Below are positions 50,590 to 51,589 of a DNA stretch of 64,000 bases, piece after piece; positions within the stretch are counted from its first letter, which is position 1, and the number at the start of each line of letters is the position of its first letter. The DNA is from Salegentibacter mishustinae. Its GTDB lineage: Bacteria > Bacteroidota > Bacteroidia > Flavobacteriales > Flavobacteriaceae. The position numbers were made by a program, and so were the translations under genes. Location: assembly GCF_002900095.1 (NCBI RefSeq), contig NZ_LLKN01000002.1, positions 1,488,001 to 1,552,000 on the forward strand, read 5' to 3'. The notes beneath the pieces were generated by a model that did not search any database, was not told the DNA's origin, and saw only the letters and a program-made list of their open reading frames with translations.

Positions 50590-50740
50590 AACTATCCTAA
50601 AGTAGGTTTCTAAAATAGGTTTATTCTGAAGCTTTGCCTGCATAATTAATTATTATTAACAGAGTGCTTTAAAATTTAGCTTAAAAGATTGGCTGCAAAC
50701 GGCGCTAAAACCTACTTAATTGTTAAAAATAAGTTAATTT

Positions 50741-50763
50741 AGTACTATTTATAGCATAGTACT
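50741..50763. promoter_or_regulatory. Inverted repeat AGTACTAT-N7-ATAGTACT upstream of the small-gene array
   Basis: Perfect 8-base arms, 57 bases before the first tiny gene. A near-match -7 element TAATTTAG (50735-50742) touches it. It could be an operator of the array promoter or a 5' leader hairpin. Confidence 0.5.
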
Positions 50764-50819
50764 GTAACAAACAAGATTCAGGACAGTCTATTAGATATAA
50801 CCTTTAAAATTTATGAAAT

Positions 50820-50915
50820 ATGAAAACTTTTGAAACCATCAGCAGACCATTCTTTAATCAGGAAAAGAATAACACCAAGAAAAACTGGAGCAGTAAAAGA
50901 CGCTATTTAAAATAA
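50820..50915 (+). CDS. Tandem small peptide gene, copy 1 (31 residues)
   Basis: ATG to TAA encodes 31 residues: MKTFETISRPFFNQEK, then NNTKKNWSSKRRYLK. It is strongly basic (nine Lys/Arg against two Glu), with no signal peptide or membrane span and no cysteine. The codon set differs from copies 2-4 only at third positions. The leader (ATAACCTTTAAAATTTATGAAAT) resembles the spacers between later copies, which act as A-rich ribosome-entry regions. The family is not recognised. See copies 2-6; the conserved parts are RPF-NQ and NW-KRRY-K. Confidence 0.78.
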   Translation: MKTFETISRPFFNQEKNNTKKNWSSKRRYLK

Positions 50916-50934
50916 CCTCTAAAAATTAGAAACC

Positions 50935-51030
50935 ATGAAAACTTTCGAAACCATCAGCAGACCATTCTTTAATCAGGAAAAGAACAACACCAAGAAAAAC
51001 TGGAGCAGTAAAAGACGCTATTTAAAATAA
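50935..51030 (+). CDS. Tandem small peptide gene, copy 2 (31 residues)
   Basis: Peptide identical to copy 1; two silent changes (codon 4 TTC, codon 17 AAC). It starts 19 bases after the copy 1 stop, with spacer CCTCTAAAAATTAGAAACC. The spacer varies more than the coding part, which favours selection on the peptide. Confidence 0.78.
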   Translation: MKTFETISRPFFNQEKNNTKKNWSSKRRYLK

Positions 51031-51049
51031 TCTTTAAAAATTAGAAATC

Positions 51050-51145
51050 ATGAAAACTTTCGAAACCATCAGCAGACCATTCTTTAATCAGGAAAAGAAT
51101 AACACCAAGAAAAACTGGAGCAGTAAAAGACGCTATTTAAAATAA
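51050..51145 (+). CDS. Tandem small peptide gene, copy 3 (31 residues)
   Basis: Peptide identical to copies 1, 2 and 4; one silent difference from copy 1 (codon 4 TTC). It begins exactly 115 bases after copy 2, the unit length of the array. Confidence 0.78.
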   Translation: MKTFETISRPFFNQEKNNTKKNWSSKRRYLK

Positions 51146-51164
51146 CCTTTAAAAATTAGAAATC

Positions 51165-51260
51165 ATGAAAACTTTCGAAACCATCAGCAGACCATTCTTT
51201 AATCAGGAAAAGAACAACACTAAGAAAAACTGGAGCAGTAAAAGACGCTATTTAAAATAA
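51165..51260 (+). CDS. Tandem small peptide gene, copy 4 (31 residues)
   Basis: Peptide identical to copies 1-3; silent changes at codons 17 (AAC) and 19 (ACT). Unit spacing is again 115 bases. The spacer after it (TCTCAAAAAATTAGAAATC) leads to the diverged copy 5. Confidence 0.78.
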   Translation: MKTFETISRPFFNQEKNNTKKNWSSKRRYLK

Positions 51261-51279
51261 TCTCAAAAAATTAGAAATC

Positions 51280-51375
51280 ATGAAAACTTTACCGACCACC
51301 CGTCCATTTTTAAATCAAGTAAAAACCAATAATCGTAGCAACTGGGATATTAAACGTCGCTACTTTAAATCTTAA
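51280..51375 (+). CDS. Tandem small peptide gene, diverged copy 5 (31 residues)
   Basis: Also 31 residues: MKTLPTTRPFLNQVK, then TNNRSNWDIKRRYFKS. Same start, RPF, NQ, NW, KRRY and K positions as copies 1-4, but about half of the other residues differ, so it is an older paralogue under constraint at those positions. Net charge is about +7, as in the others. It keeps the 115-base spacing from copy 4, and copy 6 begins four bases after its stop. Confidence 0.75.
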   Translation: MKTLPTTRPFLNQVKTNNRSNWDIKRRYFKS

Positions 51376-51379
51376 GATT

Positions 51380-51517
51380 ATGAAAATTCACGAATATATA
51401 AACCGAAACTTTGCAAGCACCCGGGAAGCCCAATTATACGGCAAGAAACCAAGTAGTAAATTCCAGGAGAACTTTACCAGGAACAACTGGTGCTTAAACC
51501 ATCAGCCTATTAGTTAA
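51380..51517 (+). CDS. Small gene at the end of the array, distant copy 6 (45 residues)
   Basis: 45 residues: MKIHEYINRNFASTREAQLY, then GKKPSSKFQE and NFTRNNWCLNHQPIS. It starts four bases after copy 5, which implies coupling. The MK start, an R-F pair near residue 10 and N-N-W late in the sequence recall the shorter copies, but the KRRY tail is absent and one Cys is present. It may be a partner rather than a paralogue of the other five. Confidence 0.65.
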   Translation: MKIHEYINRNFASTREAQLYGKKPSSKFQENFTRNNWCLNHQPIS

Positions 51518-51555: not shown

Positions 51556-51589
51556 GCCGGCACAATTTAATTTGTGACCGGCATTTTTT
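51556..51589 (+). terminator. Intrinsic terminator of the small-gene array
   Basis: GCCGG-CAC, ten-base loop, GTGaCCGGC (one bulged A) and six T. It makes the array one transcript of roughly 800 bases. Confidence 0.8.

Follow-up and report, generated by a model that had tools for sequence, protein, structure and literature searches.

The window, by which we mean the whole 64,000-nucleotide stretch of the Salegentibacter mishustinae genome that was analysed, carries a tandem array of tiny genes on its forward strand. Four ORFs of 31 codons (50820..50915, 50935..51030, 51050..51145 and 51165..51260) begin at an exact 115-base step and encode identical basic proteins, and the 19-base spacers between them have four variable sites. 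These copies are followed by a second-type gene of 31 codons (51280..51375), whose product is 60% identical to the first type, and by a last gene of 45 codons (51380..51517), whose product has R, F and NW in common with the short peptides. Both 31-residue types carry a net charge of +7 as counted from the sequence, and the 45-residue product contains one Cys. The layout, the identity of the four products and the charge agree with the original prediction, as does the closure of the array as a single unit by an intrinsic terminator at 51556..51589, composed of a hairpin (51556–51582) and a T-run (51584–51589). The hairpin has a value of −18.4 kcal/mol (z −4.87), none of 200 shuffles was equally good, and similar hairpins occur at the same place in the Salegentibacter loci of genomes G014, G013, G010 and G003. 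No further copy of the 31-residue gene was found in the own genome, where all five matches at E ≤ 10 lie within the window array.

The coding sequences show the pattern expected of selection on a peptide, as had been claimed from the letters of the window. Each of the six pairs among the four identical copies differs by one to three synonymous changes and by no nonsynonymous change, and pN/pS was low both within Salegentibacter (0.157 for 16 sequences, and 0.166 for nine sequences of the 45-residue gene) and in the two main peptide types found elsewhere in the family (0.296 for 87 sequences of the 28-residue type and 0.194 for 36 sequences of the 37-residue type). The start regions, taken as a set (n = 331), are rich in A and poor in G, A occupying positions −3 and −11 to −13. 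A broken reading frame in a homologous locus, named beforehand as the observation that would count against translation, was seen once: in G008 (L010:1590-1815) an insertion of ~95 nt splits the second peptide gene, in which the conserved Trp is also altered, but the first and the 45-residue genes at that locus are intact. The peptides are thus almost certainly selected proteins.

Arrays were found in 13 of 15 Salegentibacter genomes, the own genome included (31-residue query, E ≤ 0.1). With the 45-residue query, 12 of the 15 genomes gave matches, of which those in G002 and G012 (E 0.09 and 0.08) seem to be background; a last gene of 47 residues takes the place of the 45-residue one in G003, G013 and G010. 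Where the contig permits a count, the loci of the genus hold one to four first-type genes, and a second type of 28–31 residues is confined to one clade of the loci examined. The array of G010 is split across two contigs. G002 and G012 have no array at the corresponding place and no strong match to the upstream element described below, although G012 retains a terminator-like hairpin at the empty site. Promoter and peptide therefore co-occur in the genus, with both in 13 genomes and neither in these two. Since two congeners do without it, the system is not essential; it can be lost, yet is under selection where present. In G014, the element lies at the end of one contig (C24: L362, L372) and the array at the start of another (C166: L008, L371), with unrelated sequence beside both breaks, which probably reflects a rearrangement or an insertion event at the start codon of the first gene.

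Judged by sequence conservation, the best-conserved part of the system is the region upstream of the genes, which the first reading of the window had overlooked. Here, a family-wide element of the form CATAGTACTGTAACAAA-N13-CGTCT is conserved across Flavobacteriaceae. In the window, its upstream part (50721..50750, forward strand) comprises TGTTAA (50721–50726), GTTAA (50733–50737) and a TACTATTT box (50743–50750), all conserved in the family element. A CATAGTAC block (50755..50762) lies within a conserved 16-mer and directly upstream of the proposed −35 box TGTAACAAA (50763..50771), which is conserved and contains AAC. The proposed −10 box, at 50785..50789, reads AGTCT in the window and CGTCT in most of the family, with transcription expected to start ~7 nt beyond it. 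With a start 7 nt past the −10 box, the leader would have a median length of 31 nt. The inverted repeat AGTACT ... AGTACT that had been reported in front of the array (50741–50763) is indeed present, but it sits within this conserved promoter region. The dyad symmetry of the whole family element was not significant, as 47 of 500 column shuffles reached its score, and a perfect operator palindrome is thus not proven. Similarly, no consensus RNA structure was found in the leader element (0 predicted pairs over 37 sequences), ruling out an RNA hairpin there, and the window contains no Rfam family.

Exact copies of the 16-mer ATAGTACTGTAACAAA are present in 67 of 299 family genomes, compared to two for the reversed control, and stand at 79 places in these 299 genomes (76 fetched plus three Salegentibacter arrays). 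A named genome collection scanned with the pattern gave at least 119 matching stretches. The 80 stretches listed are all titled flavobacteria except for one 'Bacteroidetes bacterium', and their genera are ones that we take to belong to Flavobacteriaceae. In all 80 matches listed the gap to GTCT was 14, though 12–16 was allowed. Among array loci found by the 16-mer alone, 46 of 51 have CGTCT at this spacing; the overall figure is 116 of 125, with 74 of these loci having been found by a pattern that already required GTCT. TA is present at the TACTATTT-box positions in all 125 array loci. The upstream blocks are common even to G124, which belongs to another genus, and the only alignment rows without them are those of G014 and G278 (L044). 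A sequence model of the element matched 180 of 299 family genomes at E ≤ 0.001, ~131 of them below 1e-10 by a hand count. Among 247 genomes drawn from across the class, none outside the family scored better than 9.7e-6; part of the 180 matches is background, because 37 genomes outside the family also pass 0.001.

After removal of duplicates, the 16-mer matches in family genomes and those listed from the named collection gave 134 distinct loci. At 125 of these, the element is followed by one to six tiny ORFs belonging to one similarity cluster, defined by single linkage of local alignment scores. The 333 cluster ORFs are distributed as one per locus in 27 loci, two in 21, three in 52, four in 18, five in six and six in one. 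Among the nine loci without cluster ORFs, four are cut by contig ends inside the first ORF, L219 carries ORFs that have diverged strongly, L128 and L150 appear to be chance matches, and L183 and L217 have other ORFs after the element. Six further 16-mer places outside the 134-locus set comprise five with arrays and one (L383) with another ORF. All of the 20 fetched model matches without an exact 16-mer lead to peptide ORFs, as judged by eye. The ORFs after the element at L217, L183 and L383 look secreted or membrane-bound, and the promoter may thus drive more than peptides.

Peptides of the cluster are mainly 28, 36–37 or 43–44 residues long (31 in Salegentibacter), with a median charge of +6 over the 333 ORFs and a hydrophilic composition. 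Trp occurs in 312 of the 333 and Cys in 31. The motif W...[RK].[YFWH] is found in 287 of the 333 ORFs versus 7.9 in shuffles, an excess that is no independent test because the ORFs are homologous. The 28-residue type has a consensus of about MRTLNxNQLT...WNxKRRYR, and the 37-residue type one of about MK...TES+...YFS.F..SKR.QWA..RN[FY].R. The consensus originally offered for database searches (MKT-RPF-NQ-NW-KRRY-K) describes one genus only, and the wider signature is W-x3-[RK]-x-[YF]. At E ≤ 0.01, a profile of the Salegentibacter peptide matched eight of the 299 family genomes; three belong to the genus, and among the remaining five only G124 and G278 look real. The 45-residue query matched three of 299 family genomes, one match being full of stops. 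Across these loci, the genes are under coding selection, they form tandem paralogues, and one element is tied to one peptide cluster.

The claim that the family is an unrecognised one was upheld, as the window peptides have no significant Pfam or NCBIfam match. Eight representatives from across the family likewise gave nothing significant (best E 0.25 in Pfam, none in NCBIfam and 0.087 in PHROGs), so that no sequence relation between the array peptides and known families was found in the libraries searched. Consensus-like queries against PDB sequences found nothing for the 37-residue type and a best E of 1.6 for the 28-residue type. The predicted structure of the window 31-mer has no confident fold (mean pLDDT 65.5, pTM 0.14), with one weak helix at residues 20–29. 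The helical moment of this 31-mer is raised (z 2.06), while the 28- and 37-residue types have mean z of −0.52 and 0.01; an amphipathic membrane helix is ruled out for the latter two types, and the window 31-mer points the other way.

The neighbours of the arrays vary. The largest downstream neighbour cluster is an ExbD gene, at 20 of 114 loci, and the largest upstream one is a divergent gene for a secreted-looking protein, at 24 of 121 loci. PBP1A neighbours the arrays in G124 and lies downstream of them throughout the Salegentibacter loci examined, the array-bearing genomes of the genus numbering 13. Regulation of the neighbouring penicillin-binding protein had been put forward as one function for the peptides. 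Arrays elsewhere have other neighbours and a terminator stands between the array and this gene in the window, and a link to PBP1A is therefore not supported. Homologues of the window's cold-shock-domain gene and helicase gene recur in 16 and 23 of 134 loci, respectively (flanks often spanning only 3 kb), which suggests a shared ancestral neighbourhood and is no proof of shared function. A rough terminator scan behind the arrays gave 29 matches among 118, several of them inside ExbD coding sequence.

The general recognition rule for extracytoplasmic function (ECF) sigma factors is AAC in the −35 box and CGT in the −10 box (PMC4153023), and the SM6 promoters of Flavobacterium psychrophilum, which carry a CGT box, have been assigned to such factors (PMC9723704). 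In Corynebacterium, one ECF factor has GTAAC as its documented −35 sequence (PMC6338062). We found both triplets, at a fixed distance from each other, across the family arrays, with the exception of the window genus for the CGT part, as the Salegentibacter −10 box is AGTCT. That the element contains a putative ECF-type promoter, with TGTAACAAA as −35 box, CGTCT as −10 box and fixed spacing, is well supported by these boxes, and control of the arrays by an ECF factor would accordingly seem likely. An earlier candidate for the transcription start, CATAG, was replaced by the ECF reading because weak model matches before a gene for an outer-membrane-type protein carry a TGTAACA/CGTCT pair. Three further sites resembling the array ECF boxes were found in 627,243 bases of the surroundings of the arrays (80 loci listed).

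TGTAAC-N15-17-CGTC occurs at nine sites in the own genome versus 11 in a reversed control, and there is thus no excess of ECF-like sites; the AGTCT site of the window is not among the nine. Placement was read for these nine: five are intergenic before co-oriented genes and four are antisense within genes. The five precede genes for an outer-membrane-type protein, two ABC ATPases, a MacB-like protein and a DUF4870 protein. The TGTAACA/CGTCT pair precedes the outer-membrane-type gene also in G002, G008 and G009. At four loci in as many Salegentibacter genomes (L373, L365, L366 and L367), a conserved ECF-like promoter (TGTAACA ... CGTCTTTATAGTAG) was observed, and the gene behind it encodes an outer-membrane-type protein with a CarboxypepD_reg-like domain.

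An ECF factor does not account for CATAGTAC and the upstream boxes. CATAGTAC is as conserved as the −35 and −10 boxes, is missing in front of the remaining ECF-like sites of the own genome and is a candidate regulator site. The upstream TTAA boxes and a TACYTTKT-like box resemble the −7 box of sigma-A or SM5 promoters, for which TAnnTTTG / TAnnTTGY is the consensus given for flavobacteria (PMC9723704). A second, sigma-A-like start may perhaps lie upstream of the ECF boxes.

We infer from these analyses, with a probability of roughly 0.5, that the arrays constitute an ECF-controlled, dosage-amplified family of cytosolic small basic proteins, whose target is probably RNA, the ribosome or another polyanion. 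The array promoter would fire when the cell meets envelope or environmental stress, and the repeated genes with their separate start sites would yield a burst of basic, mostly hydrophilic and largely unfolded cytosolic proteins, the tandem copies serving to raise dosage. The C-terminal W-x3-[RK]-x-[YF] part would bind a polyanion such as the ribosome, mRNA or the nucleoid, while the diverged last gene would take on a specialised role. On the basis of charge, hydrophilicity, the conserved tail and the lack of an amphipathic pattern in the two main types, we put a polyanion as target class at a little less than even odds. A more specific version, in which an ECF-driven battery of 28–47-residue basic proteins with this C-terminal part in common would have the ribosome or RNA as its immediate target, for instance in hibernation or as cold/stress chaperones of micro-protein size, is tentative.

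An alternative to polyanion binding, which we regard as rather unlikely, is an action on the envelope, in which cationic peptides produced through an envelope-stress sigma factor would attach to the membrane at its inner face or to an enzyme of the envelope. Responding to envelope stress is a typical task of ECF factors (PMC4153023), ECF-like sites elsewhere in the genome are followed by envelope-type genes, arrays stand before PBP1A or ExbD genes at the loci given above, and the helical moment of the window 31-mer is raised. The 28- and 37-residue types nevertheless show no amphipathic helix, and the neighbours vary from lineage to lineage. It is less probable still that the peptides are feedback regulators or adaptors that would bind RNA polymerase, the ECF sigma factor, its anti-sigma factor or their own promoter. 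The joint presence or absence of promoter and peptide within the genus and the specificity of the CATAGTAC block to arrays are consistent with such a loop, but conservation of the element far exceeds that of the peptides, which diverge strongly among lineages. The suggestion of a toxin or bacteriocin, here widened to any selfish small-peptide set, fits small basic products, variable copy number and differing neighbours, yet has become very improbable, given that no partner gene recurs in all lineages, the composition is hydrophilic, the element was not found in viral contigs, and one 28-residue query had no match in phage records and one 37-residue query none in plasmid records. A functional RNA with merely accidental ORFs, as the strong conservation of the non-coding sequence before them might suggest, is the least probable reading of all in view of the coding selection, the A-rich start regions, the 0 pairs over 37 elements and the lack of an Rfam family in the window.

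Tandem tiny genes are also found in Ldr/Ibs-type toxin loci, where the products are hydrophobic and each gene has an antisense RNA; the products of the arrays are instead basic and hydrophilic. Small stress-linked proteins in several paralogous copies are known from SASPs and from multi-copy cold-shock genes. The array peptides are much shorter and are encoded in tandem in one unit, and the family libraries searched gave no sequence relation to such proteins. ECF sigma regulons (SM6 in PMC9723704; PMC4153023) have in common with the arrays AAC at −35, CGT at −10 and fixed spacing, and some of the other such sites in the own genome may likewise serve envelope-type genes. They differ in that tandem micro-genes are not described in the available portions of these papers and that the array promoters carry extra conserved upstream blocks. 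The Rfp small RNAs of F. psychrophilum, for example Rfp18, are likewise short flavobacterial transcripts conserved beyond one species (PMC9723704). The same source describes Rfp18 as strongly structured and its class as mostly lacking coding potential, whereas selection in the arrays acts on coding sequence and their leader element has no conserved structure.

A literature search did not find the system described, and the Salegentibacter array is best explained as a branch of an undescribed small-protein family of Flavobacteriaceae. What appears to be new is the arrangement of tandem micro-genes behind a family-wide, near-invariant ECF-type promoter, which a known target could bring nearer to a known kind. 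The peptides would represent a conserved protein family below the size usually kept by annotation and distributed among many genera of a major family of marine bacteria, and the single diagnostic promoter makes this protein family easy to find, delete and assay. The arrays indicate that micro-genes can build a multi-gene system under one promoter type, and they offer an entry point to little-known flavobacterial stress responses.

Several diverged loci were also observed. In G278, L382 (C2:362500-363900) has a model match to the element with one mismatch to the 17-mer, followed by four ORFs of 29 codons, of which three encode the same product and the fourth differs by one change, and by a 44-codon ORF; this is a window-like tandem layout in a diverged lineage, written in other letters and without Trp. 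The same genome holds a 45-residue relative of the family without an element in front (L044, G278:C86). The short ORFs after the element in a Christiangramia MAG (L219:7634-8000) are diverged, and this locus adjoins a gene homologous (38% identity) to the SdiA-regulated-type gene of the window. At L088 and L125, the peptide genes are followed by a signal-peptide-like ORF of 113 residues.
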